From the IMG/VR virus record IMGVR_UViG_3300047370_000063, positions 1-23,090 of that record: a stretch of DNA of 23,090 bases; one strand, written 5' to 3'. The stretch is from a virus. Below the pieces are notes generated by a model. That model ran no database searches, was not told the origin of the DNA, and saw only the letters and a list, made by a program, of their open reading frames with translations. Shown one piece after another: positions 3,648 through 18,011 of the stretch; the first letter of the stretch is position 1; the number at the start of each line of letters is the position of its first letter. The position numbers and the translations under genes are program-made.

Positions 3648-3902
3648 ATGGATAATGAACTTTTTGACTTTGGTTTCACCCTAGTCGACGAATCAGAACT
3701 CGAATCTGCGCAGAGATTAGAGTCTGTCGAGTCTTCAGTCGATGAATACCAAGCGCGCTTAGATCTTTTATATGACGCGATACTGCCCTTGCTAGCAAAC
3801 TTGAAGATGAGTCCTGAGAAGGAATACATCCTATGGCCGGATCGCGTTGATAAGATCGAAAAATTTGAAACACACATTCAAAACATTTACAAGGGAAACT
3901 AA
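3648..3902 (+). CDS. Conserved acidic phage protein, 84 aa, late-expressed
   Basis: An 84-residue acidic protein beginning MDNELFDFGFTLVDESELE, then a helical region with LDLLYDAILPLLANL and a C-terminal helix ending in HIQNIYKGN. I recall similar short proteins with an N-terminal DFGFT motif in marine T4-like phages, without known function. No upstream in-frame start exists (a TAA lies 12 nt before), and there is no Shine-Dalgarno sequence, which fits a leaderless message from the late promoter at 3634. It stands 3 nt before the 285-aa gene, so the two form one late transcription unit. Confidence 0.8.
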   Translation: MDNELFDFGFTLVDESELESAQRLESVESSVDEYQARLDLLYDAILPLLANLKMSPEKEYILWPDRVDKIEKFETHIQNIYKGN

Positions 3903-3905
3903 CCA

Positions 3906-4815: not shown

Positions 4816-4944
4816 TTATATGAAGTATAGTATGAGTCCAGCGACACCACACCAGATCAGAACGTTGGGATAATCTTCCCAACAATGTTTGATGTCTACC
4901 CCAGTATACTTGATAAAATCTAAAACTTTTTTAATCTGTTTCAT
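4816..4944 (-). CDS. Small membrane protein, 42 aa
   Basis: A 42-residue protein with a basic N-terminal helix (MKQIKKVLDFIKYTG), a short polar middle and one C-terminal hydrophobic segment (PNVLIWCGVAGLILYFI, about residues 26-42). The start lies 13 nt inside the end of the sialyltransferase-like gene, with a GGAGG about 11 nt upstream. A longer reading of the same frame back to 5091 would lie wholly within the upstream gene and is rejected. It is probably a single-span membrane peptide at the end of the operon, just before the convergent terminator. Function unknown. Confidence 0.6.
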   Translation of the reverse strand: MKQIKKVLDFIKYTGVDIKHCWEDYPNVLIWCGVAGLILYFI

Positions 4945-5587
4945 CCAGTTTCCCGACCTCCACCGTAACGTTTTCTGGCAATATGAGTTTAATGTCCGCA
5001 TGTGAGTGGTGAATGATAAATTTGGTATCTTTAAACTCTGTAAAGAATTTCGTCCAAATTGGTCTCCAATTTGATGACATGCGGTGTACATTTAGAGCAC
5101 TGCGATCACTGGTCAAAAAGTTATCAGTATAACTGTTGAGGTTCATGTCGAACATTGAGTCGAACCCGTACATGTGAACTTCGGTTGCTTTCATAATTCT
5201 ACACACGTAGTCTGCTGCGACGTGACCACACGAATAGTTTGTCGCCGCCTCTTCCAGTTTGTGGCCTGGTAGTTGTGCATACTTAGGAACGTAGGTGTGG
5301 AACCCTTTCACGTTCTGTGCGTACTTTAAGTAAAATGATGGTTTTTGTTCCATCCAACGACGGGGTCTAGTACCAAGAATCCAGTCATACTTCCCTAACT
5401 CGATTTTACCTTCGTCTAGTGCGATCATCATTTTGAAATCGACCATAACCGAAGCGTAAACCTCTATCGATAACATGTCTAAAGGCGGCATATTGCATAC
5501 GACATTAGACCCTGTTGGGTATGTTCCATCTAAACGTCTTTTGAAAAGACCCGCATTGTCGCCGTTACCGATTAAATTAACCTTCAT
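4931..5587 (-). CDS. Sialyltransferase-like (GT29/GT42-type) protein, 218 aa
   Basis: The N-terminus (MKVNLIGNGDNAGLFKRR) resembles the VGNSGN region of sialylmotif L in GT29 enzymes, with CNMPP after it where acceptor or donor contacts usually lie. Residues 119-144 (SCGHVAADYVCRIM, then EVHMYGFDSMF) resemble sialylmotif S, which has the form STG-A-A-EV-YGF. Both motifs sit in the expected order and spacing for a compact Rossmann-like transferase. The start at 5587 overlaps the upstream stop (TAATG); a longer form starting at 5647 would begin inside that gene. CMP-sugar use is not shown, and this is a fold-level guess. It may belong to the glycan-modifying set of this region. Confidence 0.6.
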   Translation of the reverse strand: MKVNLIGNGDNAGLFKRRLDGTYPTGSNVVCNMPPLDMLSIEVYASVMVDFKMMIALDEGKIELGKYDWILGTRPRRWMEQKPSFYLKYAQNVKGFHTYVPKYAQLPGHKLEEAATNYSCGHVAADYVCRIMKATEVHMYGFDSMFDMNLNSYTDNFLTSDRSALNVHRMSSNWRPIWTKFFTEFKDTKFIIHHSHADIKLILPENVTVEVGKLDETD

Positions 5588-5940
5588 TATCTCTGACCCT
5601 TTGGGTGATACGATCCATAGACGCAATGCATCAATTCGTGTCCCCATGTTTCCATTTGATTATAATCTTTAGAACCTTTTGGTTCTACAACGTATATATC
5701 ACATCTTTTGACCTTGTTTAGGTCATCTTTAGGATGCGCCCACTGAGCGAGACCTTCAACCTCGTCACCCTCTTTTCGTTTTAAGTGCTTGTTGAGTTGA
5801 CGTTGTGATGAGAATGTCTGTACTCGAATATCGACATATTCTCCTGTGGTGTCGTGTGTCTTGTTTAGTGGCGAAGGAATTGGATCACACGAAACCATTA
5901 TTCCTAATAAAACTACCGCGCCGATTATTTTAATATTCAT
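5587..5940 (-). CDS. Predicted lipoprotein with HExxH zinc motif, 117 aa
   Basis: The N-terminus MNIKIIGAVVLLGIMVSC is a classic lipoprotein signal: lysine, a hydrophobic core, then a lipobox-like MVSC with the modified cysteine at residue 18. The C-terminal region holds TWGHELMHCVYGSYH, where HELMH is a zincin HExxH motif and the histidine six residues on could be a third ligand. The mature protein would be anchored in a membrane facing the periplasm. The start at 5940 is chosen because it places the signal at the N-terminus; an in-frame start 12 nt upstream is possible. It overlaps the nuclease gene by 11 nt. Protease or amidase activity on the envelope is conceivable but untested. Confidence 0.7.
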   Translation of the reverse strand: MNIKIIGAVVLLGIMVSCDPIPSPLNKTHDTTGEYVDIRVQTFSSQRQLNKHLKRKEGDEVEGLAQWAHPKDDLNKVKRCDIYVVEPKGSKDYNQMETWGHELMHCVYGSYHPKGQR

Positions 5941-6283
5941 ACCTGACCGCATGTCCTTCGAAGGTGAGTAAGGTATTCAGATTTTGTTGACCGTCGGGCG
6001 TATCTATGATGATCTCGCCGAGTATGCGACCGAACTTTCCCTTGCCGTCCTTCTTGGATCGAAGGATTACTTTAGATCCGTTGGGAGCCATACGTTCGAC
6101 AAAGTCTTTCGCGGCCAGACCTTTCTGCTTTTCGTGCAAGTCTCTTGTTCTTGTCTCGAACGCGTCGATACCAAAGAGGCGAACCCTTTGATTAGCGTAT
6201 AAGACACCAAAACCAAGATCGATATCAAGGTCAACAGTATCACCATCAACCCACCTGCGAATAGTCGCACTATATTCATACAT
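5930..6283 (-). CDS. Staphylococcal-nuclease-like (SNase) protein, 117 aa
   Basis: A single SNase (thermonuclease) OB-fold domain. DGDT at 13-16, VRLFGIDAFETR at 34-45 (R35, D40, E43) and KFGRILGEI at 83-91 (R86) correspond to the calcium-binding and catalytic residues of staphylococcal nuclease (D21, R35, D40, E43, R87). There is no signal peptide, so it would act in the cytoplasm, probably on host DNA or RNA. Length is close to one bare domain. It starts directly after the stop of the 72-aa gene. Similar nucleases are widespread in marine phages. The catalytic set seems intact. Confidence 0.85.
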   Translation of the reverse strand: MYEYSATIRRWVDGDTVDLDIDLGFGVLYANQRVRLFGIDAFETRTRDLHEKQKGLAAKDFVERMAPNGSKVILRSKKDGKGKFGRILGEIIIDTPDGQQNLNTLLTFEGHAVRYEY

Positions 6284-6502
6284 TTATTCCGAATCAGGAA
6301 CAATGGTGTAAGCAACTTCCAAGATATCTTGATACTCGGCAACCTGCTTTAACTCTTGTTCCAAAGCCTCCATTACGTCTGAATGTTCACCGATACCCGC
6401 TGGGTTTTGTAGATAGACCTCCACGTTTGCTTTGTGTAAGGCGATCTTTCCTTTCATATGAGCGATAGTCGCATCGATCATACGATTACGTAGGGTTTTC
6501 AT
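6284..6502 (-). CDS. Conserved small helical phage protein, 72 aa
   Basis: A 72-residue, mainly helical protein beginning MKTLRNRMIDATIAHMKGKI and containing NPAGIGEHSDVMEALEQEL. I recall close relatives in marine T4-like phages, always without a function. There are no cysteines or membrane segments; the two long amphipathic helices could dimerise. An AAGGA ribosome site stands 6 nt before the ATG, and the stop is immediately followed by the ATG of the nuclease gene. Confidence 0.8.
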   Translation of the reverse strand: MKTLRNRMIDATIAHMKGKIALHKANVEVYLQNPAGIGEHSDVMEALEQELKQVAEYQDILEVAYTIVPDSE

Positions 6503-6514
6503 AATATATCCTTG

Positions 6515-6979
6515 TTAAATTTGAGAGCGTGCCTTTTCGACCGCCCGTGACCCGAACCAAAACGAGATGATCGCGGCAAAGATTGCCTTTGTATCATCGT
6601 CCCATAATGTGTTTAAAGCCTCTGATAACGGTGTCCCGTTACTGAGGGTTTCTTGCAACAATGCAATTTCTATCGCTGCAAATAGACCGAAGAAAGCGTA
6701 AGTGATGACAGGACGCACTGACTTTTGAAGTGCGGACATAAACCCAGTCCCCCTAGAAATCGCCGTGTCGTGTTCTAAAAGAGCCTTCTGTTCTTCGTGA
6801 AGACCCATCTCAGCAAAACGTCGAATTTCATGTTCGTAACCTTTGGCAGTGAGTTCCGCCATCTTCTCCATTTTCTTGAGTTCAAACTCCATACTTTTTT
6901 TGGTCTTATAGTGTTCCGTAATGGCAGGAACGACTGAACTACCGAACCCCAATATTGACCCTATTAAACCACTAAGCAT
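6515..6979 (-). CDS. Holin-like protein with three membrane segments, 154 aa
   Basis: Hydrophobic segments lie at about residues 2-20 (with GLIGSILGFGSSVVPAI), 86-108 (SVRPVITYAFFGLFAAIEIA) and 130-148 (IFAAIISFWFGSRAVEK), separated by a long charged helix at 24-72. The RPVITY motif and the WFGSRAVEK end resemble the three-TM holin family first described in gene transfer agents. A perfect AGGAGG lies 5 nt before the ATG. As a holin it would form lesions in the inner membrane to release endolysin. The lysozyme gene is about 9 kb away, and other small membrane proteins here are also holin candidates. Confidence 0.7.
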   Translation of the reverse strand: MLSGLIGSILGFGSSVVPAITEHYKTKKSMEFELKKMEKMAELTAKGYEHEIRRFAEMGLHEEQKALLEHDTAISRGTGFMSALQKSVRPVITYAFFGLFAAIEIALLQETLSNGTPLSEALNTLWDDDTKAIFAAIISFWFGSRAVEKARSQI

Positions 6980-6988
6980 AACTGCCTC

Positions 6989-7654
6989 CTATGACAGGTT
7001 CATCATCTGTTTTATTTTTAGGTTACCCTTCTGTCCGGTATGATGGATGATTACCGGATTGGTAACCGCTACATTGTCTATATAGTCCAACCTTAACGTA
7101 TTATATTTATGCGGTATAGGATTTATTTTTCCCAATTTTTCTATAGGGGATAACATATAGTGCAATACTTCTTGATCTCCCTGTTCCGGTCGAGACTCTG
7201 TTTTGTCTTTCCATGCACGTAGAATTTCATTTCTATCAGTCATCACCACTCCCGAATTGTACCAGTCTCCATTTTCAGGACGACGTTTAGTCCACGGCCG
7301 ATCTTGAACCATGTTGAGAATGTTGGGTTGAAAGTGATCCCAGATAGTGTCTATCTTAGCGTTTATTTGACAGTCGGTGTCTAACCAACAAATACGAGAA
7401 GACATATTCGTGGCGACCCAAATTGCAGTGGGTTTCTTGAACCACCCCGCAACCGAAGATTCGAACGAAAAGATCTGCATTCGTTTCATGTAGGTGGGGT
7501 GTTGATGAAGGTGTCCTATCATTTCTTCTGACATGCCAAAATTTGCAATCAACAGAGGAACACCAGAGTGTTTCTGCCAGTTCTCTAGGAACCAAGGTAA
7601 CTGCCACTCCGTGTTAGAGTCGCATCCTGTCAGATAACACTTTTTATACTTCAC
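6989..7654 (-). CDS. GT8-like glycosyltransferase (GT-A fold), 221 aa
   Basis: Three family features are visible (numbered from the ATG at 7663): the metal-binding DxD in CWLDTDCQ (residues 95-97), WYNSGVVM at 134-141, which matches the NSG element of GT8/GT-A enzymes, and HHTGQKG at 207-213, which matches the C-terminal H-x-x-G-x-K nucleotide-sugar motif. A GTG at 7654 with AGGAA 9 nt upstream is the preferred start; the ATG at 7663 is almost fused to the AGGAA. The terminator of the sulfotransferase gene lies just upstream and no clear promoter follows it, so expression may depend on read-through. Donor and acceptor are unknown. Confidence 0.8.
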   Translation of the reverse strand: MKYKKCYLTGCDSNTEWQLPWFLENWQKHSGVPLLIANFGMSEEMIGHLHQHPTYMKRMQIFSFESSVAGWFKKPTAIWVATNMSSRICWLDTDCQINAKIDTIWDHFQPNILNMVQDRPWTKRRPENGDWYNSGVVMTDRNEILRAWKDKTESRPEQGDQEVLHYMLSPIEKLGKINPIPHKYNTLRLDYIDNVAVTNPVIIHHTGQKGNLKIKQMMNLS

Positions 7655-7672
7655 TAGTAACATTTCCTAGAC

Positions 7673-7709
7673 CAAAAAAAAGACGGGTAGGTTTCCCATC
7701 CCGTCTTTA
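7673..7709 (-). terminator. Terminator of the sulfotransferase gene
   Basis: On the minus strand AAAGACGGG pairs with CCCGTCTTT around a partly paired apical region (GG with CC), followed by a run of T. It lies 20 nt after the sulfotransferase stop codon. Confidence 0.85.
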
Positions 7710-7729
7710 TCTATCATGTTAATAAGTGA

Positions 7730-8449
7730 TTATTGTTGCGCTTCCCACTCATCAACTAGGTCTGCTTCTTCTGGAGTTAACCACTCCTTCCAAATACCCA
7801 CGCGTTCCATTAGGTCTTCACCTGTTCCCTCACGGCAACGGCGGATACCTGAATCTTGAACAACTACGTCGATCATGTTTTGATCGATTTCAGACTTAGG
7901 AGTACCGAAATCTTCACGATTACTGTTATCTTCACGTGGTAAAAGTGCGTGTACCAACTCAGCCATGAACTGGTGTGGATTTTCGACCGCTTCCTCATAT
8001 GACCACTCTTTAGATGCGACAACATTCTTTGACGCTTCTACGAAATCTGATAGCATAGAAAAACCCATTGGTCCTTCTGCGAACTCAGAGAATGACTGAT
8101 CTGGGGCGTATGTCTTCCAGTTAGAGACCATTACGTCTTTCCAGTCACGCGTGACTTTAAAAATCTGAGAAGTGGATAGTTGACCTGACGAAATATCTTC
8201 TAGTGCTTGGTCACCAGATAAGAAATCTGCGTCTGGAGTGCATCCTAATGATGTCGCACATACTGGTTTTTGGTCAACGTGATACGCATGTTTTGCGATT
8301 TCTAGGTTTGAACCAGTTTCAACACCGTGACAGTTACGGACATACATACCGTATAAGTTTTGAAAGTAAGTGTTCCCTGAAGAAGGAGCTCCGACCATCC
8401 AGTGGTCGTGCATTGAACGCATACTTAATTGAGATGCTGGATTACTCAT
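7730..8449 (-). CDS. Sulfotransferase (PAPS-dependent), 239 aa
   Basis: The PAPS 5'-phosphosulfate loop is visible as MVGAPSSGNTYFQN (18-31), the 3'-phosphate-binding element as IFKVTRDWKDVMVSNWK (96-112; R101 and S109), and the C-terminal signature as RVGIWKEWLTPEE (216-228), equivalent to the GxWK-x-x-T motif of the family. It would transfer sulfate from PAPS to a hydroxyl or amino group of a sugar, peptide or small molecule. No signal peptide, so it is cytoplasmic. It is a monocistronic unit with its own late promoter (8525) and terminator (7673-7709), which suggests a product needed in quantity late. GAGG lies 10 nt before the ATG. Confidence 0.85.
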   Translation of the reverse strand: MSNPASQLSMRSMHDHWMVGAPSSGNTYFQNLYGMYVRNCHGVETGSNLEIAKHAYHVDQKPVCATSLGCTPDADFLSGDQALEDISSGQLSTSQIFKVTRDWKDVMVSNWKTYAPDQSFSEFAEGPMGFSMLSDFVEASKNVVASKEWSYEEAVENPHQFMAELVHALLPREDNSNREDFGTPKSEIDQNMIDVVVQDSGIRRCREGTGEDLMERVGIWKEWLTPEEADLVDEWEAQQ

Positions 8450-8524
8450 TTTTGTTTTTCCTCGTTAGAATTCTAATGGACTTGGTGTGCATATATCTGG
8501 CCAGAGATCACTTCCAAGTCATAT

Positions 8525-8532
8525 TATTTATA
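8525..8532 (-). promoter_or_regulatory. Late promoter (TATAAATA) for the sulfotransferase gene
   Basis: An exact TATAAATA on the minus strand, fused to the T-run of the terminator before it (TTTTTTTATAAATAAT). Transcription would start near 8519, about 70 nt before the sulfotransferase ATG. Confidence 0.85.
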
Positions 8533-8558
8533 AAAAAACCGGACGCGAAGTCCAGTTT
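8532..8558 (-). terminator. Terminator of the 8566-12302 operon
   Basis: On the minus strand AAAC-T-GGAC pairs with GTCC-G-GTTT around a TTCGC loop, with one mismatch in the stem, followed by a run of seven T that continues into the late promoter. It begins a few bases after the stop of the 68-aa gene. Confidence 0.8.
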
Positions 8559-8565
8559 ATGAGTA

Positions 8566-8772
8566 TTATTTCTGCTCTTCTTTCCAGATAGTCCAGAGTC
8601 CGTATAGGACACCTGCGTATGCGACCATACCGATGAGCGATTCAAACAAGATGTAACTACCACAGACTGCGACGATTACTGTCCCGTCCCATGTAGTACG
8701 TTCCCCTAGGCGTTCTTTAAACCACGCCTGTGCTATTGCGACGTATGCCGCTACTTTAGTCATTCCCCACAT
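8566..8772 (-). CDS. Small membrane protein, 68 aa
   Basis: A 68-residue protein with a moderately hydrophobic N-terminal helix (MTKVAAYVAIAQAWF), a polar stretch (KERLGERTTWDG) and a hydrophobic region at about 31-62 long enough for one or two membrane spans (VIVAVCGSYILFESL, then GMVAYAGVLYGLWTIW). The ATG at 8772 has AGGAG 7 nt upstream; an upstream in-frame start at 8808 lacks such a site. It overlaps the ATP-grasp gene by 13 nt and ends the operon before the terminator. It could be a membrane anchor or substrate for the enzymes upstream, or simply a small phage membrane protein. Confidence 0.7.
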   Translation of the reverse strand: MWGMTKVAAYVAIAQAWFKERLGERTTWDGTVIVAVCGSYILFESLIGMVAYAGVLYGLWTIWKEEQK

Positions 8773-9683
8773 TGTTGTTCTCCTTTTATGTGACTTGCGA
8801 ATACCCAAAAATTTTCGTCAGTATTTTTAGTGAAAGACTCTAACCACGAGTCGGCATCACCCATGAAGTCCGAATACATACTATGTCGTCCGTTGTGTTC
8901 GAACCAATAAACTTTTAAGTCGGATGTGATACACCCCGACACGTTTCCTTCATAATTGCCACCAAGACTTGCCACGTATTCCAACCAGTCTTCGCATTTC
9001 TCTCTGTAGACTTCTTCTTGTTCCGGTGTTAGATCTCTCATGCAGGTCAGATTTCTCCAGTCAGTCTCAGCGCCCAGAATCTTGTAACCCGACACATCAC
9101 CGTGAATCCCTTTGATCGACGTGATCGTATATGTACCGTTGCAGATTCGATATTGACAATATCCTTCAACCTCAAAATCTACCTCTTTCTCTACGTATGC
9201 GGGAGACGCACCTTCTTCGCTGAAAATCATATTCTGATATTCAAGGTCTGCGTCCGGCAAAACCTTCCACGCCTGACACCACGTGTCGTGATACTTCGAT
9301 TTCAGATAGGTTGTGTAAGGAAACCGTTGCATCTCGTTCAGATTGCACTCTAGAATCACTTCTGGGAGTTCGAATCCATACTCCCAAGCCTTCTGTCGCG
9401 TTTCCCACTTATAAAGTTCGAGACGCGAACTTTCCAACGTGTTTCCAAAATAAGTGTAGTCGTCAGACGGAGACAGTGTTAGGCCCGCCATGTTACTTAC
9501 CACAATGTCGGGTTTAAATCTTTCTATCTCTTCCTCTGCCCACGATAGCGCCTTTGGACCACCATAGTATATGTTGATACCTCCGGCGTGTTGATTAATC
9601 AACTTTACGGTGTGACCTTTCTCCTCTAACGCGGGAACGAGACTTTCATACGTCTCTGTCAATGCAAAGAGCAGTATCCTCAA
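8760..9683 (-). CDS. ATP-grasp enzyme, PurD-like, 307 aa
   Basis: The N-terminal domain (MRILLFALTETYESLVPALEEKGHTV) resembles the Rossmann-like start of PurD/GARS and related ATP-grasp ligases. FGNTLESSRLELYKWETRQ (79-97) followed by YGFELPE matches the LE-x-SK-x-x-x-K block before the ATP-grasp. TTYLKSKYH (124-132) offers the ATP-binding lysine, YVEKEVDFEVEGYC (163-176) the adenine-loop region, and YWFEHNGRH (259-267) the E-x-N-x-R metal and phosphate site. Such enzymes join a carboxylate to an amine using ATP. It overlaps the radical SAM gene by 4 nt, which argues for joint function. The substrate is unknown; de novo purine synthesis is not implied. Confidence 0.7.
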   Translation of the reverse strand: MRILLFALTETYESLVPALEEKGHTVKLINQHAGGINIYYGGPKALSWAEEEIERFKPDIVVSNMAGLTLSPSDDYTYFGNTLESSRLELYKWETRQKAWEYGFELPEVILECNLNEMQRFPYTTYLKSKYHDTWCQAWKVLPDADLEYQNMIFSEEGASPAYVEKEVDFEVEGYCQYRICNGTYTITSIKGIHGDVSGYKILGAETDWRNLTCMRDLTPEQEEVYREKCEDWLEYVASLGGNYEGNVSGCITSDLKVYWFEHNGRHSMYSDFMGDADSWLESFTKNTDENFWVFASHIKGEQQCGE

Positions 9684-10672
9684 GTGTTGTCCCTATAGTC
9701 GTTGAGTGTGAAATTTGTTCCATGCATTTTCATGAGGTCACGTTCATGGTTGGTGTATACTAGAACCTCTGGATCATCGACTAAAAAATCACATGATTTA
9801 CAGAAATCTGGGTATTCGCCCGTTCTGTGTTGTTGTCGTAACTCTTCGTATGCCTCACCGAAGAAGATGTCTTCAATAGTGTCGTCCTGACAGTGTCCAA
9901 GGACCGCTTCGTCATCACGTCCCAGTACCTGACAACAAGGGTGTACAGCACCATGTTTACCGTCAAGACCTCCAGCACGTATAACAACATCTGGACTAAA
10001 TGGTCGTCCACAACTCTTCACCTTACCTGTTCTTGCGTTATCACCAATCTCATATGCCCCTGACCAGTTGTGCATCTTCCAGATCTCTGTCTTGACGCCC
10101 AACTCCTCGACCAACGCTTTGTATTTAGTGAGTTCCTCATCTATTTTTTCGTTGTCCGTGATTAGGTGATAGGTGGACACTACGCAATCTGCGCCTGTCT
10201 CATTTACATAGGAAACCATTTCCTGAATGTTGCGCTTAATATGCGCGTAGTGCCCACCCACAGCGTTGTACATCCATTGGGTATAGTCTTGTTCGTCTGA
10301 CCCAATGAATGAAAATCGGTAGAAGTCCAGTCCCGCATCGACACAGTCGCGCATGTACTGACCTTCCATTTTGAATCCGTTTGAGAAGATGAAACACTTC
10401 GCTCCATACTTCTTTACTACCTTTATATATTCAGGTAGATTTTTTGCCATCGTCGCTTCACCAGATCCGTCAAGGTTCACGACACGGACTCCGTGCTTCG
10501 CACAGTCTGCGACGTATCCCTCAAACTCATCGAGTTTCATGATGCGACGGAATCCTCTATGACGACCTCCCTCACGAAGATCTTGTGGGCACATCGAACA
10601 CGAGTAGTTACATCCGCCCGCGACCTCGATGACCGCACGGTCTATCGTAAAGGTTTCTCTAGTCATTTCCAT
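9680..10672 (-). CDS. Radical SAM enzyme with SPASM domain, 330 aa
   Basis: CNYSCSMCP at 21-29 gives the CxxxCxxC motif (C21, C25, C28) that binds the SAM-cleaving 4Fe-4S cluster. DGSGEAT at 68-74 is equivalent to the GGEP SAM-contact motif. The C-terminal part has C221, C246, C247, C261, C291 and C294 (with CKSC), typical of a SPASM domain with auxiliary Fe-S clusters. SPASM enzymes modify peptides, proteins or carbohydrates by radical chemistry. The start overlaps the GT9-like gene by 14 nt and the stop overlaps the ATP-grasp gene by 4 nt. A second ATG two codons later is an alternative start. Confidence 0.9.
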   Translation of the reverse strand: MEMTRETFTIDRAVIEVAGGCNYSCSMCPQDLREGGRHRGFRRIMKLDEFEGYVADCAKHGVRVVNLDGSGEATMAKNLPEYIKVVKKYGAKCFIFSNGFKMEGQYMRDCVDAGLDFYRFSFIGSDEQDYTQWMYNAVGGHYAHIKRNIQEMVSYVNETGADCVVSTYHLITDNEKIDEELTKYKALVEELGVKTEIWKMHNWSGAYEIGDNARTGKVKSCGRPFSPDVVIRAGGLDGKHGAVHPCCQVLGRDDEAVLGHCQDDTIEDIFFGEAYEELRQQHRTGEYPDFCKSCDFLVDDPEVLVYTNHERDLMKMHGTNFTLNDYRDNT

Positions 10673-11540
10673 AATATTGTCTCATTCTATTTTCGTAATC
10701 TACTGCTTTATCTTTAGTGTGTCCAAGTAGGGGGCCTATATTAGATAACCACCACCAAGGATTCTTTTTCTCATACGACACCGTTGGGTTTATCCGTAAC
10801 GCATTCGGTGTATGGTATTTAGTCACACCCTCACCAGAGATTACCGCCATCGGTCGTGCAAAGTTCTTTGCGATGTAGTGCCAGATACCGTCGTAACAGA
10901 TCACCATACGCGAGGTAGATATTAGGTCCATCGCCTCACGGACGGGTGTTCGATATCCCAACTCATAAACGTTAAACCCCATCGTCTTTAGGTCTCTGAT
11001 CAGACATTCCCAATCCTCGTTGGTGAACTGTCTCTTCCACGTTCGGGGTTTCTCTGCGTTCCAAGTCGGTCTCCATATAACCACACGGTTATCAACAATG
11101 TTTCTAAACGCGTCCTCACGAAAAATCCAGTCGTTGTCGGGGGCAGTAGATCCGGTCATGTCATTGTAGTAACCGCTCTCAAACCAAAATCTTGCCTTTT
11201 CCATACCATGACTTTTCGCAGCGATACGTTTCTCTCCACTGGGATCGGTAACAATGTCGTCCGCAAACTTCCAGTGTTTGTATCTACCTTGCGCGTTAAA
11301 GATATGATGTATCTCTACGCGTTCTTTCTGGTGGTAGAAGTTATGAATATAATCACATCGCTCGATGATGGTTTCCGGATCTTCGAAATGGTGCAGGTAG
11401 TCCTCACCGTGTTCCCAGTGAAACTCTAGATTTATTTTAGAAACGTTTTGATCTGCGGCATACCTGTGACACGAGTTCAACGCCCACATGAAATCACCTA
11501 CGCCGGGCGTTCCTCTCCAAGTCACTAATTCTGAGGCCAT
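10659..11540 (-). CDS. GT9-like (heptosyltransferase-type, GT-B) glycosyltransferase, 293 aa
   Basis: The N-terminal WRGTPGVGDFMWALNSCH resembles the glycine-rich GxGD start of heptosyltransferases. NRVVIWRPTWNAE (151-163) opens the second Rossmann domain. GYRTPVREAMDLISTSRMVICYDGIWHYIAKNFARP (195-230; split here as TPVREAMDLI, then CYDGIWHYIA) matches the GT9 block in which the nucleotide-sugar site has the form D-x-G-x-x-H-x-A, followed by MAVISGEG. It is a cytoplasmic enzyme that probably adds a sugar from an ADP- or other nucleotide-sugar. It overlaps neighbours on both sides by 1 and 14 nt in the seven-gene operon. Confidence 0.7.
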   Translation of the reverse strand: MASELVTWRGTPGVGDFMWALNSCHRYAADQNVSKINLEFHWEHGEDYLHHFEDPETIIERCDYIHNFYHQKERVEIHHIFNAQGRYKHWKFADDIVTDPSGEKRIAAKSHGMEKARFWFESGYYNDMTGSTAPDNDWIFREDAFRNIVDNRVVIWRPTWNAEKPRTWKRQFTNEDWECLIRDLKTMGFNVYELGYRTPVREAMDLISTSRMVICYDGIWHYIAKNFARPMAVISGEGVTKYHTPNALRINPTVSYEKKNPWWWLSNIGPLLGHTKDKAVDYENRMRQYYGND

Positions 11541-11875
11541 CAGTTCGTCTTAATACTCTTCACTTTACGTGCCGATCCTGTTGAAGTATATAGACCAAAC
11601 CAAGCAGCGCCTGCTCCGACCACCACAGATATAAGACCTGCTTGTGATGCATTTGGTTCAGGTATCGTCATGAACCATTGTGTGGTTTCAATGAGTAGGT
11701 ACAAATAGGTACCAATGAATGCTCGCGGGAAAAGTCGATACGCATCGATTACATCCGCGAACTGTAGTAGAGGTTCAAAACGAGTCGGTACCACTTCTTT
11801 CTGGGTGGTATCGAATTCGACCTCCAGTTCTAGTTTTTTCTTGATAGGTGCTACTACTACTGTTTCTTCTGTCAT
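11540..11875 (-). CDS. Two-span membrane protein, conserved in marine phages, 111 aa
   Basis: A polar N-terminal tail of about 50 residues precedes two hydrophobic segments at about 53-71 (FIGTYLYLLIETTQWFMTI) and 79-98 (GLISVVVGAGAAWFGLYTS), ending in a basic tail (ARKVKSIK). The VVGAGAAWFGLY signature is familiar from small phage membrane proteins of unknown function. A holin-like role is possible. The start overlaps the upstream gene by 4 nt and the stop overlaps the next ATG by 1 nt, so translation is probably coupled. Confidence 0.75.
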   Translation of the reverse strand: MTEETVVVAPIKKKLELEVEFDTTQKEVVPTRFEPLLQFADVIDAYRLFPRAFIGTYLYLLIETTQWFMTIPEPNASQAGLISVVVGAGAAWFGLYTSTGSARKVKSIKTN

Positions 11876-12141
11876 TTGGTGAACCTTTTATTAATCCATT
11901 TGTAGGCGGCATATATGGACAATCCATAGAACGCAAGAACACTCATTGGCAGACCGATGTAGATCAACTCCCACGGATGAAGAAATAACAACTCCCACGA
12001 AAGATCTACGATTGCCTGCACATCACTTGTTCTAGAAACATCTGTCATGTCCATAGCGACGTTGTATTCGTCTACTATTCCATTCCATGTATCTACGTCC
12101 ATACAGACCAGATCATCTGGACAGATAAATTCTTCTTCCAT
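11872..12141 (-). CDS. C-terminally anchored membrane protein, 89 aa
   Basis: An acidic N-terminal domain with two cysteines (EEEFICPDDLVCMD), a helical middle and one hydrophobic segment near the C-terminus (about residues 60-79, with LPMSVLAFYGLSIYAAY), ending in a basic KWINKRFTK. This pattern suggests one span with the basic end in the cytoplasm. The ATG at 12141 overlaps the stop of the 53-aa gene by 1 nt (TGATG); a GTG one codon upstream is also possible. Unknown function. Confidence 0.7.
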   Translation of the reverse strand: MEEEFICPDDLVCMDVDTWNGIVDEYNVAMDMTDVSRTSDVQAIVDLSWELLFLHPWELIYIGLPMSVLAFYGLSIYAAYKWINKRFTK

Positions 12142-12302
12142 CACTTAACCTTAAAATCTTTTGGGTCGCCGTTGATCAGTTCCTTCGCCTTATCTTCCCA
12201 GACGAATGGTAACAGTCCATGCACAAACGACACAAACGCAATCGTCCATGCTCTGTATAAGTGTTCGAAGTAATTAAGACCTATATCCTTTAGATGTCCC
12301 AT
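12141..12302 (-). CDS. Small DUF6356-like protein, 53 aa
   Basis: The 53-residue product begins MGHLKDIGLNYFEHLYRAW and continues TIAFVSFVHGLLPFVWED. The HL-x-x-x-x-x-YF-H pattern followed by a hydrophobic helix with HGLLPF and WED matches what I recall of DUF6356, a short family found in bacteria and their phages. AAAGG stands 6 nt before the ATG. It is the first gene of the seven-gene operon and lies just after the carbamoyltransferase terminator. No function is known; the hydrophobic helix could associate with the membrane. Confidence 0.7.
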   Translation of the reverse strand: MGHLKDIGLNYFEHLYRAWTIAFVSFVHGLLPFVWEDKAKELINGDPKDFKVK

Positions 12303-12327
12303 ATTCAACCTTTATTTTTATTAAAAT

Positions 12328-12371
12328 GGGGTGCCCGAAGGCACCCCGAGCGAAGTCGGGATTCGGTGCCT
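12328..12371 (-). terminator. Terminator with possible competing (attenuator-like) fold
   Basis: After the carbamoyltransferase stop, the minus-strand transcript contains GGGGTGCC-TTCG-GGCACCCC, a perfect 8-bp terminator stem (12347-12328) followed by ATTTTAAT. The GGTGCC arm can instead pair with GGCACC at 12370-12365, which overlaps the stop codon, with a CCCGA/TCGGG hairpin nested between. The terminator is clear; the regulatory switching is inferred. Confidence 0.75.
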
Positions 12372-13887
12372 AGAACACCTTCACCTCATACTTCTGTTCC
12401 CACATCTCGGCGTCCAGTTCGTCATTAACCATAGGACGGCCTCGAATGTTGAGAGAGGTGTTCAGGAGCATTGGTACTCCTGTCCTGTCGTAGTACTCCT
12501 CGATGACCTTACGGAACACCGATTCGCAATTCTTCTTCACGATTTGAACACGTGCAGTTCCATCTACGTGTGTTACTGGAGCATAGTCATGTTTTGCCCA
12601 TGAGGTGAACTGCATATGTTCATTCATTGGTCCGTCGAAGTATTCCTCCGCATATTCCTCTAGGATAGCAGGTGCGAACGGACGATACTTCTGTCGTCTT
12701 TTAATTGTGTTTACAGTGTCTTGTACGTCGTATCTTACATCAGCAATAAGGGAGCGGTTGCCAAGAGCACGAGGACCGAACTCAGCCCTTCCACTAGCAA
12801 TTCCACAATAGCGATGTTCAAGTAAATGATCGACGATACTGCTAGGATTAACATCCCTTTCGATATTATGCCCCGCATAAGGACTCCATATTAATTTGTC
12901 TTTTCCTGTTGCCTTTGCCCACGATCGGGCTGCTGTCCCCAAACCAGACCCCGCGTCGGTCGGAGATACTGCAATATGTACCTCATCAAACAGTTCAAAC
13001 AATCTGGAGTTGATTACAACGTTCTGTGCACACCCACCAGAATAACATAACTTCTTACCATATTTAGACGCCTCGCGCATTATACCCATAATTGCATAGT
13101 CCGCGAAATCTTGAACCGCACGTGCGACAACTTTGTCTTCTAACGCACTGATTCTTATTTTGAATTCTTCTCTCCACTTCTTACGTGCGATCTCGCGAGG
13201 TGATGTTTCGATACCAACTGCAATACCCTCTGCGATCTCTGGTGCGATGTCCTCTAGGTCATCATACCAGTTGATCAACCACTGCGTCAGTTCGTTGGAC
13301 TTTTCATCGGTTTCGTGGTATGCGGACAGTCCCATGACGACGTATTCGTCTTCGAGTGGGCGTAGACCTAGTAACTTGGTCGCGACTGTGTAGACCAGAC
13401 CGACCGACTTCGGATAGTGCCACTCTTTGATTAGATTGAACTTGTGGTCCATGATGGTCGCAGTCTGCAACTCACCGACACCATCGATCGATACCAAAAC
13501 GGTATCCTCTGCGGAGTCCCACGGGCGCGTGTAGAACGCTGCCGCACAGTGTGACTCGTGGTGTAAGTGGTTTACATCAAAGTGTTGCGCGTTCGGGATG
13601 ATCATGCGATTGAAGGTTTCTTCTGCGGTATCTGGACGACCCTTTAGATGTGTAGTGTCTCCTGTGGTGTCGATTCCTCCACGCATATCAAACTTGAGGG
13701 TTTGGTCCTCGTAGAATGATACGTGATCGTCGTCCCTGACCATATCCCATAGTACTTCTGGAAGATGTGGATCGTTTTTCTTTTTGGAGTAACGTTCTCC
13801 GTGAGTTGCGAACTCGACTGTGCCATCTTCATTGATGATCGCGAATCCAGCATCATGATAATATTCACTGTAACCAACAAATCTCAT
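12370..13887 (-). CDS. NodU/CmcH-type carbamoyltransferase, 505 aa
   Basis: The N-terminal Kae1-like domain begins MRFVGYSEYYHDAGFAII (H11) and holds HHESHCAAAFY (109-119) and VSIDGVGE (132-139), which correspond to the metal- and ATP-site residues of TobZ/NodU. The C-terminal YrdC-like domain holds EFGPRALGNRSL (369-380), KRRQKYRPFAPAIL (396-409) and LLNTSLNIRGRPMV (474-487), all hallmarks of the family. Such enzymes use carbamoyl phosphate and ATP to carbamoylate a hydroxyl of a sugar or nucleoside. At 505 residues it is slightly shorter than many bacterial members. It is a monocistronic late gene (promoter 13916, terminator 12328-12347). The acceptor is unknown. Confidence 0.9.
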   Translation of the reverse strand: MRFVGYSEYYHDAGFAIINEDGTVEFATHGERYSKKKNDPHLPEVLWDMVRDDDHVSFYEDQTLKFDMRGGIDTTGDTTHLKGRPDTAEETFNRMIIPNAQHFDVNHLHHESHCAAAFYTRPWDSAEDTVLVSIDGVGELQTATIMDHKFNLIKEWHYPKSVGLVYTVATKLLGLRPLEDEYVVMGLSAYHETDEKSNELTQWLINWYDDLEDIAPEIAEGIAVGIETSPREIARKKWREEFKIRISALEDKVVARAVQDFADYAIMGIMREASKYGKKLCYSGGCAQNVVINSRLFELFDEVHIAVSPTDAGSGLGTAARSWAKATGKDKLIWSPYAGHNIERDVNPSSIVDHLLEHRYCGIASGRAEFGPRALGNRSLIADVRYDVQDTVNTIKRRQKYRPFAPAILEEYAEEYFDGPMNEHMQFTSWAKHDYAPVTHVDGTARVQIVKKNCESVFRKVIEEYYDRTGVPMLLNTSLNIRGRPMVNDELDAEMWEQKYEVKVF

Positions 13888-13915
13888 GAGTATATTCCGT
13901 AGTTAATAACTTAAT

Positions 13916-13923
13916 TATTTATA
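13916..13923 (-). promoter_or_regulatory. Late promoter (TATAAATA) for the carbamoyltransferase gene
   Basis: An exact TATAAATA on the minus strand, continuous with the terminator T-run before it (TTTTTTTTATAAATAATTAA). The expected start near 13910 is about 23 nt before the ATG at 13887. Confidence 0.9.
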
Positions 13924-13950
13924 AAAAAAAGGGGGGTCAAAAGACCCCCC
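13923..13950 (-). terminator. Strong terminator of the 13974-15105 early operon
   Basis: On the minus strand a perfect stem GGGGGGTC-TTTT-GACCCCCC is followed by eight T. It lies just downstream of the HAD phosphatase stop and isolates the early operon from the late carbamoyltransferase gene. Confidence 0.95.
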
Positions 13951-13973
13951 GACATGCTACCTTGAGCGGGAAC

Positions 13974-14546
13974 TTAATGTCCTAAAACGTAGTCATATAT
14001 ATCTTTCCAATTACGCATCAATGGGAACTCACTGTCCTGATTGTAACCGTGTGACATCACTACAGACTCTAGACCTACCTTCGCACCAGCGACGGCATTC
14101 TCTACCTTGTCCTCTACCCACAGACATCCTGTGTCGCGGTAGAACTCCAACTTTTCGTCTTTGTCGGCTCCCGTGTCGAGATAAATGTACTTCTCAAAGA
14201 CGGTTGGACCAAAAAGTTCTTGGAGATTTTTGGTGCGCAGATGCTGCGCGTATTCGTCGTTACTCAAAGAGGTGATTGCGTGAAATATATAACCGTGATC
14301 TTCGTGCAACTTACGAACATACTTGATTGCGTCACGGAGTGGTGGGATCTTTCTAACTGTCGCACTCTCGTTGAACATACGACAAAGTCGTTGCTTCTCA
14401 TTTCGTTCCAAACCATACATGATACCTACGTCATACACGTCTGGACTCTTTACCACATAACCGTGGCGTTTCATCCACTGTTGGAATGCATATCCCCAGT
14501 CTAATAAAACACCATCACAATCAACAAGTATTACTTTATCCCTCAC
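13974..14546 (-). CDS. HAD-superfamily phosphatase / 5'-nucleotidase-like, 190 aa
   Basis: HAD motif I is VILVDCDGVLLDW (5-17), with nucleophile D9 and general acid D11. The hydroxyl of motif II is in HAITSLSND (89-97), and motif IV is LWVEDKVENA (142-151). The layout, with a short cap after motif I, resembles the phage and bacterial Nt5C-like deoxynucleotidases that remove phosphate from nucleoside monophosphates. The start is probably GTG at 14546, since it overlaps the upstream stop by 4 nt (GTGA) and has GGAGG about 10 nt upstream. It is the last gene of an early operon, in line with a role in nucleotide pools. Confidence 0.8.
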   Translation of the reverse strand: MRDKVILVDCDGVLLDWGYAFQQWMKRHGYVVKSPDVYDVGIMYGLERNEKQRLCRMFNESATVRKIPPLRDAIKYVRKLHEDHGYIFHAITSLSNDEYAQHLRTKNLQELFGPTVFEKYIYLDTGADKDEKLEFYRDTGCLWVEDKVENAVAGAKVGLESVVMSHGYNQDSEFPLMRNWKDIYDYVLGH

Positions 14547-14716
14547 GGGGCGACTCCCTCCTCTCTAACATTTTGCATAATAACATAAACCTCACTGGGA
14601 CTCAATCCCTCATCATACAGTGCGACCTGCATATTTGCCCAATCAGGCGCATATTCTGTTGTGTACATATAGTGAGTGACGATGTCGTCGATTTTAACTT
14701 GGATTTCTCTGGTCAT
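14543..14716 (-). CDS. Small hypothetical protein, 57 aa
   Basis: A 57-residue soluble protein beginning MTREIQVKIDDIVTHYMYT, acidic towards the C-terminus, with SPSEVYVIMQNVREEG suggesting a helix-turn-helix-sized unit but no recognised family. The ATG at 14716 overlaps the stop of the upstream gene by 4 nt (ATGA) and has GAGGGCAAGG upstream; a longer reading of this frame from 14755 would run through the upstream gene. Early operon member, function unknown. Confidence 0.7.
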   Translation of the reverse strand: MTREIQVKIDDIVTHYMYTTEYAPDWANMQVALYDEGLSPSEVYVIMQNVREEGVAP

Positions 14717-14898
14717 ACCACCTTGCCCTCTCGTATAAATTTGTCGGCATACCACTCTAAATCGTGGCGATTTTCACCGAATTTCACAGCTACTGATAGA
14801 CCGTCTTGATACATCACTAGACGATATTCATATTTGTCGGTTGGTGCCTCATCGACTACCGCACGACGACCATGTTTATGGTTTACCGCTTCGTACAT
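14713..14898 (-). CDS. Small hypothetical protein, 61 aa
   Basis: A 61-residue basic-to-neutral protein with a strand-rich middle (YEYRLVMYQDGLSVAVKFGE) and a C-terminal helix (DLEWYADKFIREGK). This looks like a small beta-alpha domain, but I cannot name it. The ATG follows directly on the TAG of the upstream gene, and no strong ribosome site is seen, so translation may depend on reinitiation. Function unknown. Confidence 0.7.
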   Translation of the reverse strand: MYEAVNHKHGRRAVVDEAPTDKYEYRLVMYQDGLSVAVKFGENRHDLEWYADKFIREGKVV

Positions 14899-15105
14899 CT
14901 AGTTAGCCCATGCGTTCACATGTGCAAACTCATCTGCCTTGTCGACGAATCGATCATAGTTATCACCTAACTGAGTCATTACAATCGCGTCAGCGTCGGT
15001 ATCGACCATATACAGGGCATATGTTCGTTTAGAACCTTCTAAGGTTTTGCGTATCTCAGACGCAATTCCTAGTTCGGCGTTCTCAACTCGATAAAGTGTT
15101 TCCAT
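14899..15105 (-). CDS. Small hypothetical protein, 68 aa
   Basis: A 68-residue protein, first gene of the early operon 13974-15105. It begins METLYRVENAELGIASEIRK and has a TYALYMVDTDADAIVMTQ strand region. The ATG at 15105 is chosen because GGAG lies 7 nt upstream and because a longer reading to 15174 would cross the promoter at 15139-15167. No domain recognised. Confidence 0.75.
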   Translation of the reverse strand: METLYRVENAELGIASEIRKTLEGSKRTYALYMVDTDADAIVMTQLGDNYDRFVDKADEFAHVNAWAN

Positions 15106-15138
15106 TTCTAATCTCCGTTCTCTCACTTCCAAGTCTAT

Positions 15139-15167
15139 ACTATACATGAGAGAGGAGTGTTTGTCAA
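15139..15167 (-). promoter_or_regulatory. Early sigma-70 promoter for 13974-15105
   Basis: On the minus strand TTGACA (15167-15162), 17 nt, then TATAGT (15144-15139). The upstream AT-rich block TATTTTTAAAATGAGTG is almost identical to that of the promoter at 19212-19241, which suggests a shared UP element or repeat origin. Confidence 0.85.
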
Positions 15168-15209
15168 CACTCATTTTAAAAATATGCTGGTATTATTCAC
15201 AAAAAACTC

Positions 15210-16076
15210 CTATGGGAATAATGCTCTAGTGAATTTGGTTTCGTCGCCTTCCCGTTGCGTATTGTATCTACGATCGTTCCAGTGGCGTACCATGTCTACT
15301 TTCCATTCACCACCAGTGTAGTGACAGAAACGTGCTTTTTGGAAGAACTCTTCTTCCGATGCATAGTGGGGGGAGTCGTTCCACGTCTGGTCGATGGTTT
15401 CGATATCGAAATCGTGTTTCATCAACTGCGCGGAGATGTAGGGTTGATCATTCATGATGGACATGTGGAAGTCGCCCGTGTAACACCATTCTTCCCAAGG
15501 TAGGAACAGTTCACGTGCACGTAGACGCGCTTCTTTGGTCCATAGGACCACACCCGTGTTCATGATGGTTATCTTAGAGGGACGATTGGGCGGCATCACT
15601 GGGACGATTGGGCAGTCGTGTAGGGAGAACTTACGACAGAAGTTGTCGTAAGTGTCGCCGGGCCCATCCCATGAATTGTAACCACCGCCGGAGGCAGTAA
15701 CGAAATCTGATTCTAAGACACCATAGACATCCGCACCGGACTCCATGAGATCAAAGATATTTTCGTCAGTGTTGACCACGATGTCTGTATCTGCAAACAA
15801 CAGGTTGTCGTATTGGTCAAAAATAGGGTCTAACCAGACACGTGCGCACTCGTGCAGTAGGGATGTCGAACATCCGTGACCTTCGGTCGCTACGCGTTTG
15901 TTGGAGTAAATGTGTGTTGCATCGATTCGTTCTGCATACTTCTCGAACGACTCGCGTGAGATCTTGGCGACCTCTTCGTAGAGAGAGGAACGAGAACCGT
16001 CCCACCCTTTGATACCACCACGTTTGTCGACTTCCTTAGACGTGATCATATACTGAAAGATTACATTTTTAGACAT
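15210..16076 (-). CDS. GT-A glycosyltransferase, GT8-like, 288 aa
   Basis: NLLFADTDIVVNTDENIFD (91-109) contains the DxD metal motif (D96, D98), KITIMNTGVVLWTKEA (168-183) the NTG element, and FCHYTGGEWK (250-259) the C-terminal H-x-x-G nucleotide-sugar motif. The first 60 residues start with a short beta strand (NVIFQYMITS) as in other GT-A enzymes. It overlaps the lysozyme gene by 8 nt and has AGGTTAGAGA upstream. It closes the late unit that starts at 17978, so it is probably made with the lysis proteins. It is clearly different in sequence from the GT8-like enzyme at 6989-7654. Confidence 0.8.
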   Translation of the reverse strand: MSKNVIFQYMITSKEVDKRGGIKGWDGSRSSLYEEVAKISRESFEKYAERIDATHIYSNKRVATEGHGCSTSLLHECARVWLDPIFDQYDNLLFADTDIVVNTDENIFDLMESGADVYGVLESDFVTASGGGYNSWDGPGDTYDNFCRKFSLHDCPIVPVMPPNRPSKITIMNTGVVLWTKEARLRARELFLPWEEWCYTGDFHMSIMNDQPYISAQLMKHDFDIETIDQTWNDSPHYASEEEFFQKARFCHYTGGEWKVDMVRHWNDRRYNTQREGDETKFTRALFP

Positions 16077-18003: not shown

Positions 18004-18011
18004 TATTTATA
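18004..18011 (-). promoter_or_regulatory. Late promoter (TATAAATA) for 15210-17978
   Basis: An exact TATAAATA followed by ATTG on the minus strand, 26 nt before the ATG of the 89-aa gene. It starts the late unit with lysozyme. No terminator separates it from the early operon upstream (stop at 18025). Confidence 0.85.

Follow-up and report, generated by a model that had tools for sequence, protein, structure and literature searches.

In the window analysed here, a 23,090-nucleotide stretch of viral DNA, a block of phage glycan enzymes is surrounded by lysis genes: lysozyme and holin-like genes in the window itself, and spanins in relatives. Judged from sequence comparisons, the glycosyltransferase GTa, the carbamoyltransferase CARB, a GT9-like enzyme, and the radical SAM enzyme RSAM form a core that is mostly linked and diverges together. 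The reading we favour, held at a little under even confidence, is that the block is a late glycan-tailoring module inside the lysis region of T4-like marine phages and that it remodels an LPS/LOS-type envelope glycan. The eight enzyme genes that an earlier, sequence-only reading had counted within about 11 kb are all present and open at their places, as an ORF check of the window confirmed, and are listed here with their surroundings.

4931..5587, minus strand: SIA, probable GT42 (CstII)-like glycosyltransferase fold (AF2 and VIA-align; longest ORF to 5647)
5587..5952, minus strand: small ORF resembling a lipoprotein (hydrophobic N-terminal stretch; lipobox MVSC)
5930..6283, minus strand: SNase-like endonuclease (PF00565 9e-9; phrog_452)
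6515..6979, minus strand: holin-like membrane protein (PF11351 GTA_holin_3TM, E 8.5e-4, below cut-off)
6989..7663, minus strand: GTb, GT8-like GT-A glycosyltransferase (PF01501 5e-5, below cut-off; DxD at residues 95-97)
7680..7702, minus strand: terminator-like hairpin after SULF
7730..8449, minus strand: SULF, sulfotransferase-fold protein with a degenerate active site (AF2 model, fold comparison, and alignment)
8525..8532, minus strand: TATAAATA, predicted late promoter of SULF, about 76 nt upstream of the gene
8760..9683, minus strand: ATP-grasp (PurD-like) candidate, sporadic, from a motif only
9680..10672, minus strand: RSAM, radical SAM/SPASM enzyme (CxxxCxxC plus C221, C246/247, C291, and C294)
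10659..11540, minus strand: GT9-like (GT-B) enzyme (weak profile matches; adjoins RSAM in every locus where visible)
12141..12302, minus strand: DUF6356 small protein (PF19883, 27.5 bits, over cut-off)
12328..12347, minus strand: terminator-like hairpin after CARB
12370..13887, minus strand: CARB, NodU/TobZ-type O-carbamoyltransferase (PF16861 4e-44; PF02543 1e-27)
13916..13923, minus strand: TATAAATA, predicted late promoter of CARB, about 29 nt upstream of the gene
13931..13950, minus strand: terminator-like hairpin between HAD and the CARB promoter
13974..14546, minus strand: HAD-superfamily (NT5C-like) protein (phrog_420 6e-36; NT5C E 0.0013, below cut-off)
15210..16076, minus strand: GTa, GT8-like GT-A glycosyltransferase (PF01501 6e-4, below cut-off; DxD at residues 96-98)
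16069..16584, minus strand: lysozyme/endolysin (PF00959 1e-6, over cut-off; PHROGs tail lysozyme and endolysin)
18004..18011, minus strand: TATAAATA, predicted late promoter heading the lysozyme-GTa-HAD unit, kept upstream of orf17709 in 50 of 57 loci

The lysis-gene surroundings of the block were overlooked in the sequence-only reading. That reading did tie one enzyme gene to the lysozyme unit, and this is GTa, which shares 8 nt with the lysozyme gene. The holin-like ORF matches phrog_6637, of unknown function, at 2e-21 and a holin phrog at only 0.004, and relatives encode Rz-like spanins in their lysis context. The small lipoprotein-like ORF had no PHROG match and only a weak match to PcfJ.

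Late expression was claimed for two enzyme genes with private promoters, and these proved to be CARB and SULF, with the arrangement conserved in relatives. The window has the octamer TATAAATA five times where 0.65 occurrences would be expected, a count that none of 300 simulations reached; by its sequence and its position upstream of late genes, it qualifies as a T4-type late promoter. Among the best 80 loci per scan, it precedes SULF in every one of 48 loci and accompanies the start of CARB in 54 of 63 (in two it falls just inside the gene), and a terminator-like site precedes CARB in 49 of 63. In the related phage record C48C1, at least 8 of 25 such octamers fall within 200 nt upstream of gene starts (from a partial list of starts), the genes so preceded including head-tail adaptor, sheath, tube, and SULF; among the annotated genes of this record are also a late sigma factor and a late-promoter regulator.

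Related loci were taken as the best 80 per scan, and co-divergence was measured on a set of 50 dereplicated loci. Within the best 80, the GT9-like and RSAM genes are adjacent in all 78 loci with visible upstream DNA, RSAM is present in 70 of 70 GT9 loci, and the GTa loci contain HAD, the GT9-like gene, and RSAM in 46 of 46 cases each and CARB in 45 of 46, HAD being the constant neighbour between GTa and CARB. Correlations of divergence over the 50 dereplicated loci were 0.94 for GTa-CARB, 0.92 for GTa-GT9, and 0.88 for CARB-GT9, whereas HAD, lying between GTa and CARB, correlates with either at just 0.77-0.78, and the GTa-CARB partial correlation given HAD is 0.86. For RSAM against each of GTa, CARB, and GT9 the value is only 0.82, hardly higher than for HAD (0.76-0.80 in two sets), and SIA is lower still (0.48-0.61 with GTa, CARB, GT9, and RSAM). 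The permutation test ignores the tree, and because the genes share ancestry, the linkage could be inherited synteny. Nor is the full core obligatory, given that at least 6 of 80 RSAM loci run lysozyme-GT9-RSAM with no GTa, HAD, or CARB between and that a good CARB is missing in 8 of 68 loci (best 80 per scan). Within these best 80 loci per scan, the core genes were not found to be carried independently in unrelated loci. A tblastn search of 50,697 phage records found GTa, GT9, RSAM, and SIA in only one, C48C1.

The joint pathway first proposed thus narrows to the core, for which linkage, co-divergence, and late promoters speak; its sulfate step lacks support, as does the ATP-grasp protein as a regular member. 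NodU/TobZ enzymes carry an HHxxH metal motif, an N-domain Asp, and a C-domain GRxEFGPRALG. The motif His and Asp residues and GPRALG are each invariant in 63 of 63 aligned CARB sequences, both domains exceed the Pfam cut-offs (150.5 bits against 27, and 97.5 against 24), and the PDB matches are GdmN/TobZ; by these sequence criteria, CARB is an O-carbamoyltransferase of NodU/TobZ type, as first named. RSAM likewise keeps its assignment, with CxxxCxxC present and both the radical SAM (48.4 bits) and SPASM (33.2 bits) domains over the Pfam cut-off; its best PDB match is the archaeal tetraether lipid synthase (core domain, E 3e-5), BtrN is among the matches to its C-terminal part (E 0.002), and it falls below the cut-offs of the NCBIfam models (25 of 31 matches listed). 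With BtrN and other SPASM/twitch enzymes it has in common the radical SAM core and a C-terminal Cys set, albeit at low similarity. The GT9-like ORF is real, but its family assignment is weak: Glyco_transf_9 matched 2 of 23 family members (best E 0.084), heptosyltransferase II in NCBIfam gave E 0.07, and comparison with WaaC/F/Q/U by hhalign gave a probability of 0.6%. Both proteins called GT-A glycosyltransferases stand as such on Glyco_transf_8 matches of 23.4 and 20.0 bits, which do not reach the Pfam cut-off of 24.3, together with a DxD motif invariant in 9 of 9 GTb and 15 of 15 GTa alignment rows.

The downstream genes are more changeable: among the best 80 loci per scan, SIA occurs in 44 of 56, SULF in 35, GTb in 22, and the ATP-grasp candidate in 7 (and in 2 of 12 large records). 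SIA had been called sialyltransferase-like, and CstII is indeed its first structural match in VIA-align (Z 9.7, 4.1 A, 186 aligned), with sialyltransferases filling nine of the first ten rows; the unrelated SteA is, however, formally tied (Z 9.0, 161 aligned), and no sequence-profile match was found in Pfam or PDB. The AF2 model has pLDDT 69, and its first Foldseek match, a Pasteurella sialyltransferase, has E 0.0018, none reaching 0.001. GNG, CN, SxG, and H188 are invariant in 10 of 10 rows, and a GT42 (CstII)-like fold is probable on this modelling. Three of ten alignment rows lack the first ~20 residues; hence, the start is probably 5587 rather than 5647. Of the ATP-grasp ligase, the ORF and an invariant E-x-N-x-R, which we take to be the ATP-grasp motif, are what stands; no profile matched in Pfam, NCBIfam, or PDB, and hhalign against PurD was not significant (E 0.4).

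For SULF, the sulfotransferase fold is clear (AF2 pLDDT 90; VIA-align Z 14.0, 3.5 A, 189 aligned), with 47 of the 50 listed structural matches named sulfotransferases and the remaining three being Teg12/Teg14, which are sulfotransferases as well; no Pfam family exceeds the cut-off. PAPS sulfotransferases use as catalytic residues the Lys of the PKSGTTW loop and the His of KTHLP, and bind the cofactor through a 3′-phosphate-binding Arg and the Arg of RKG. Both cofactor Arg residues persist (24 of 24 and 23 of 24 rows), and eight of 24 rows, the window's among them, retain a Ser at the 3′-phosphate site. The catalytic Lys is kept in 2 of 24 rows (a basic residue in 2 of 43 variants), the catalytic His in 2 of 24 rows and 5 of 43 variants, and the window has Ser at both positions. 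Sulfate transfer by SULF is therefore unsupported, since both catalytic residues are gone in 38 of 43 variants, window included, and SULF is the fastest diverging among the eight families compared. The degenerate protein is a caution against inferring sulfate chemistry from fold alone.

Several families named in the block belong to LPS/LOS synthesis: GT8-like, GT9-like, CstII-like, and the GT25 'LPS biosynthesis protein' found in the relatives' variable slot and in 5 of 12 large records (though not in C48C1). In the favoured envelope reading, the GT9-like and GT-A enzymes would add sugars to a host lipid-A-core-type acceptor, RSAM may oxidise or epimerise one sugar, CARB would cap a hydroxyl with a carbamoyl group, and the variable downstream transferases (GTb, GT42-like, and sulfotransferase-fold, with GT25 or GT8-like in relatives) would complete the outer part. 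The host would be the main supplier of nucleotide-sugar and carbamoyl donors. A UDP-glucose-dehydrogenase-type gene, found in 10 of 12 records, fits this reading. An envelope altered late in infection might keep other phages, or at lysis the phage's own new virions, from adsorbing to the cell or its debris. Against this, late expression leaves little time for envelope LPS to be renewed, and CMP-sugar synthetase and APS kinase were each found in 0 of 12 records. A fuller version strikes us as improbable: a release programme in which the fixed core caps the host envelope glycan with a carbamoylated sugar that has been radically oxidised, changeable outer transferases track host surface types, the dead, fast-evolving SULF serves as an acceptor- or partner-recognition subunit, and released virions thereby escape capture by debris.

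Alternatively, and we think rather unlikely, the module could glycosylate virion proteins (tail fibres or decoration proteins) at assembly, giving a carbamoylated sugar coat. Late promoters are common to the block and structural genes, a hydropathy scan found no TM-like stretch in any of the block's enzymes, and in C48C1 two large adhesin-like proteins, one of 933 aa (Big_9/cadherin-like) and one of 1480 aa (FG-GAP repeat), are encoded immediately upstream of the lysozyme-GTa unit; yet in the window nothing of that size lies between NrdB and lysozyme and the core is intact, several families fit LPS/LOS synthesis, and the neighbours are lysis, not tail, genes. That there is no joint pathway at all, only independent auxiliary genes collected in a permissive late region and co-inherited by descent, is distinctly unlikely. 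The comings and goings of the ATP-grasp candidate, GTb, SULF, and SIA fit it, as does the weaker co-divergence of SIA, but GT9 and RSAM are inseparable where visible, even in the six loci that have no GTa, HAD, or CARB between lysozyme and GT9, and GTa, CARB, and GT9 co-diverge more tightly than with the intervening HAD gene.

Very unlikely is a role in which CARB modifies 5-hydroxymethylcytosine in phage DNA and some glycosyltransferases glycosylate DNA. CARB is of the same family as the 5hmC carbamoyltransferase described in part of PMC8670742, and C48C1 has a TET/JBP oxygenase, a UDP-galactopyranose mutase, and an annotated DNA methyltransferase. However, the thymidylate-synthase/dCMP-hydroxymethylase family was found in 0 of 8 records and TET/JBP in 1 of 12 (C48C1 only), records that may be incomplete, yet CARB is nearly constant; moreover, an excerpt of PMC8670742 places glycosyltransferases, among others, beside the carbamoyltransferases of unmodified contigs. 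Least plausible, to the point of being hard to credit, is a RiPP-like reading in which RSAM and the ATP-grasp protein make a modified peptide or small molecule. Peptide maturation is a known setting of SPASM and ATP-grasp enzymes, and distant peptide-maturase models are among the NCBIfam matches of RSAM; against this, no precursor peptide was recognised among the small ORFs close to RSAM (four in number, at 8566, 11540, 11872, and 12141), of which one is DUF6356 and two contain a TM-like stretch, and most loci lack the ATP-grasp gene.

For the envelope reading, a late, co-diverging core with a radical SAM enzyme and a carbamoyltransferase offers a testable pathway, and its placement among lysis genes offers a testable reason, a surface change at infection's end; glycosyltransferases of ocean phages are usually catalogued singly, as auxiliary genes of unsettled purpose. 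In the parts of the following sources available, the marine OM43 phages similarly carry sulfotransferase-family genes, whose function the authors call unclear; those proteins are Sulfotransfer_3 by the authors' annotation, whereas SULF reaches no Pfam cut-off and has lost its catalytic residues (PMC10580990). Phages with 5hmC carbamoyltransferases have a NodU/TobZ-type enzyme, as CARB is, but there it accompanies thymidylate synthase homologues (PMC8670742), found in none of eight records here. A possible counterpart that speaks for the envelope reading is the Pseudomonas LPS pathway, in which WapO places an O-carbamoyl group on inner-core heptose: heptosyltransferases, further glycosyltransferases, and a carbamoyltransferase act on one core oligosaccharide, much as the block might, although that pathway is bacterial, includes heptose kinases, and has no radical SAM enzyme in the available part of its description (PMC8005017). 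Marine T4-like phages, including pelagimyophages (PMC7029224), cyanomyophages (PMC3037559), and S-SCSM1 (PMC9602691), likewise carry GT8-type and other glycosyltransferases and sugar-nucleotide genes; cyanophages also carry a carbamoyltransferase and some marine T4-like phages radical SAM cassettes, and host-surface change has been proposed for their LPS/LOS genes, as excerpts of these reports state. Pelagimyophage glycan genes usually sit in a hypervariable host-recognition region, with small clusters elsewhere (PMC7029224, in part), whereas the block described here has a fixed core order, late promoters, and a place in the lysis region.

All eight enzyme ORFs named by the sequence-only reading were found in the window, on the (-) strand. 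The radical SAM/SPASM enzyme (RSAM) and the NodU/TobZ-type carbamoyltransferase (CARB) are firmly assigned. The two GT-A glycosyltransferases, GTa and GTb, are GT8-like, with an invariant DxD motif and scores under the Pfam cut-off; the GT9 identity of the GT9-like (GT-B) enzyme is weakly supported, and the ATP-grasp protein is a putative one, recognised by motifs. Searches with hhalign for GT9, GT8, and PurD relations, using shallow alignments, gave nothing significant. The sialyltransferase-like protein is placed as follows:

Probable start 5587, (-) strand: sialyltransferase-like (GT42/CstII-like) protein, SIA

Its AlphaFold2 model, of modest confidence (69), has CstII as its top match (Z 9.7, 4.1 Å, 186 residues), in a formal tie with the unrelated SteA fold (Z 9.0, 161 residues); sialyltransferases fill 9 of the first 10 rows. 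Foldseek returned nothing for this model at E 0.001, the best match being a sialyltransferase at E 0.0018.

The window spans an entire 23,090-base IMG/VR virus record, which probably represents part of a larger genome. Of the 50,697 phage records searched, only C48C1 is a near relative: a 156-kb circular Kyanoviridae genome with annotated genes for a T4-type late sigma factor and a late-promoter regulator; the record states no host, and the terminase is closest to those of Synechococcus phages (48.8%). Scans of IMG/VR gave 59 loci via the GT9-like protein and 8 via the sulfotransferase-fold protein (SULF), and profile scans gave the best 80 of 198 (RSAM), 152 (SIA), 192 (GT9), and 184 (GTa) relatives. 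Dereplicated numbers are given because the same contigs recur among the loci of different scans. Cellular relatives of RSAM were also sought, but the genome scan yielded only two MAG contigs, one of which (L238) carries GTa-HAD-CARB-GT9-RSAM-SIA (HAD being a HAD-superfamily gene) and is therefore probably phage DNA.

The enzymes had been read as one surface-decorating pathway, and this holds for a core of GTa, CARB, GT9, and RSAM, supported by linkage and co-divergence, but not for the sulfate step, as residues are lost from SULF. Among the best 80 of 198 RSAM relatives, GT9 adjoins RSAM in all 78 loci with the upstream side visible, adjacency being gauged stop-to-stop on open frames rather than from true starts; reciprocally, RSAM is present in 70/70 GT9 loci with 1 kb downstream (best 80 of 192). 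GTa loci with 5 kb downstream (best 80 of 184) contain HAD, GT9, and RSAM in 46/46 cases and CARB in 45/46. Taking a match of >100 bits as presence around RSAM, loci with 5.5 kb upstream (best 80 of 198) contain GTa and HAD in 66/68 cases each and CARB in 62/68, two of the 62 (L136 and L139) being weak remote copies of 109–118 bits. The downstream side is more variable: loci from the same best 80 of 198 with 6.5 kb there contain SIA in 44/56, SULF in 35/56, GTb in 22/56, and ATP-grasp in 7/56, and, in the relatives examined, GT25-type or GT8-like proteins can occupy the slot that follows RSAM. At least 6 of the 80 RSAM loci (best 80 of 198) run lysozyme-GT9-RSAM without the intervening GTa, HAD, and CARB. 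A 53-aa DUF6356 protein (window 12141–12302, (-)) lies between CARB and the GT9 unit and occurs in 18 of 39 dereplicated loci.

Pairwise distances across 50 dereplicated loci correlate at 0.94 for GTa-CARB, 0.92 for GTa-GT9, and 0.88 for CARB-GT9, against 0.77–0.78 for HAD with the genes on either side of it, GTa and CARB, albeit rate differences may depress the HAD values. RSAM correlates with GTa, CARB, and GT9 at 0.82 each, barely higher than HAD. Given HAD, the partial correlation is 0.86 for GTa-CARB and 0.54–0.55 for pairs with RSAM (0/500 permutations as high); given lysozyme, GTa-CARB remains at 0.92 (42 loci). Since the permutations ignore shared ancestry, co-divergence is support and not proof. 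SULF distances track GT9 (0.90) and GTa (0.84), and CARB less (0.62); SIA tracks the core less well (0.48–0.61).

The SULF model (confidence 90) adopts a sulfotransferase fold (Z 14.0, 3.5 Å, 189 residues). Named sulfotransferases make up 47 of the 50 matches listed, and the remaining three are Teg12/Teg14, which are likewise sulfotransferases. In the alignment, the 3′-phosphate-binding Arg is kept in 24/24 rows, the catalytic Lys in 2/24, and the catalytic His in 2/24. Among 43 variants, distinct but without dereplication by similarity and thus containing close relatives, Lys and His occur together in two (L049 and L058), His alone in three, and neither in 38, the window included. With these residues gone from most SULF proteins, the sulfate transfer proposed earlier is unsupported for the window, judging from sequence. 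Mean pairwise identity over 24 dereplicated loci is 0.41 for SULF, compared with 0.88 for RSAM, 0.82 for CARB, 0.81 for GTa, 0.75 for HAD, 0.71 for both GT9 and lysozyme, and 0.68 for SIA. The variants with both Lys and His (2/43; L049:11972–12667 and L058:11298–11993) are possible active forms. In another related locus (L307:11618–12854), the variable slot holds two more ORFs whose openings look P-loop sulfotransferase-like by eye, without a Pfam hit. The function of phage sulfotransferases is termed unclear by the authors of PMC10580990, in the part of that paper available.

The window contains five copies of the T4-type late-promoter octamer TATAAATA versus 0.65 expected, and 0/300 simulations reach five. 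Late promoters of their own had been claimed for two enzyme genes, and the octamer is indeed found upstream of SULF in 48/48 loci and at CARB in 54/63 (two just inside the gene), in counts that contain close relatives; it was absent upstream of the eight other families tested. A further site heads the lysozyme-GTa-HAD unit in 50/57 loci, a count that likewise takes in close relatives. Each of HAD, CARB, and SULF has a terminator-like hairpin downstream in the window, and CARB and SULF therefore look like single-gene late units there; across loci, a hairpin lies upstream of CARB in 49/63 and of SULF in just 10/48. The window scan gave 27 terminator-like sites against 10.2, and a sigma-70 scan gave no signal (27 sites, 25.3 expected). 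A late promoter for the DUF6356-GT9-RSAM unit was looked for and not found; this unit may be expressed through read-through. C48C1 has 25 TATAAATA-type sites, eight of them within 200 nt upstream of gene starts on a partial list; the genes so placed include the head-tail adaptor, sheath, tube, and SULF, but not CARB. On the opposite strand, the octamer is conserved (39/39 loci, close relatives among them) upstream of the first gene of a two-gene unit (window 3648–4763, (+)), the second gene of which (3906–4763) is without a Pfam or PHROG family.

Within or beside the block lie a lysozyme, a holin-like protein (weak match), and a lipoprotein-like ORF, and Rz-type spanins occur in two relatives tested (L153 and L231). 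Large Big_9 and FG-GAP repeat proteins stand directly upstream of the lysozyme unit in C48C1; the window is without such genes there. Elsewhere, C48C1 encodes an isocitrate lyase (L074:44175–45416; PF00463, E 4e-94), a di-haem cytochrome c peroxidase/MauG-like protein (L075:7990–9411), and, in a row at 49583–53030 (L075:1–3030), a TET/JBP oxygenase, a phrog_14998 protein, and a UDP-galactopyranose mutase, a candidate cytosine hypermodification cluster.

Remodelling of the host envelope is the better reading of the module's target, and virion glycosylation is its main rival. Carbamoylation or hypermodification of phage DNA is unlikely: the known 5hmC carbamoyltransferase accompanies thymidylate synthase (PMC8670742, in the text available), whereas, in records that may be incomplete, the thymidylate synthase family is absent from 8/8 and TET/JBP is present in 1/12. 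UDP-glucose-dehydrogenase-type genes were found in 10/12 records, again possibly incomplete. Phage-encoded donor routes were considered and set aside, with CMP-sugar synthetase and APS kinase each in 0/12 of these possibly incomplete records and UDP-galactopyranose mutase in 1/12 (C48C1 only).

No description of this gene set came up in the literature searched, nor did a paper on C48C1. Phage surface-glycan sets are already known, and, as far as these searches can tell, what is new is a late core with RSAM and CARB in the lysis region. As far as the accessible parts of the sources go, host envelope remodelling has known parallels in the LPS-type genes of marine T4-like phages (PMC7029224, PMC3037559, PMC9602691) and in Pseudomonas LPS with its carbamoylated inner core (PMC8005017).
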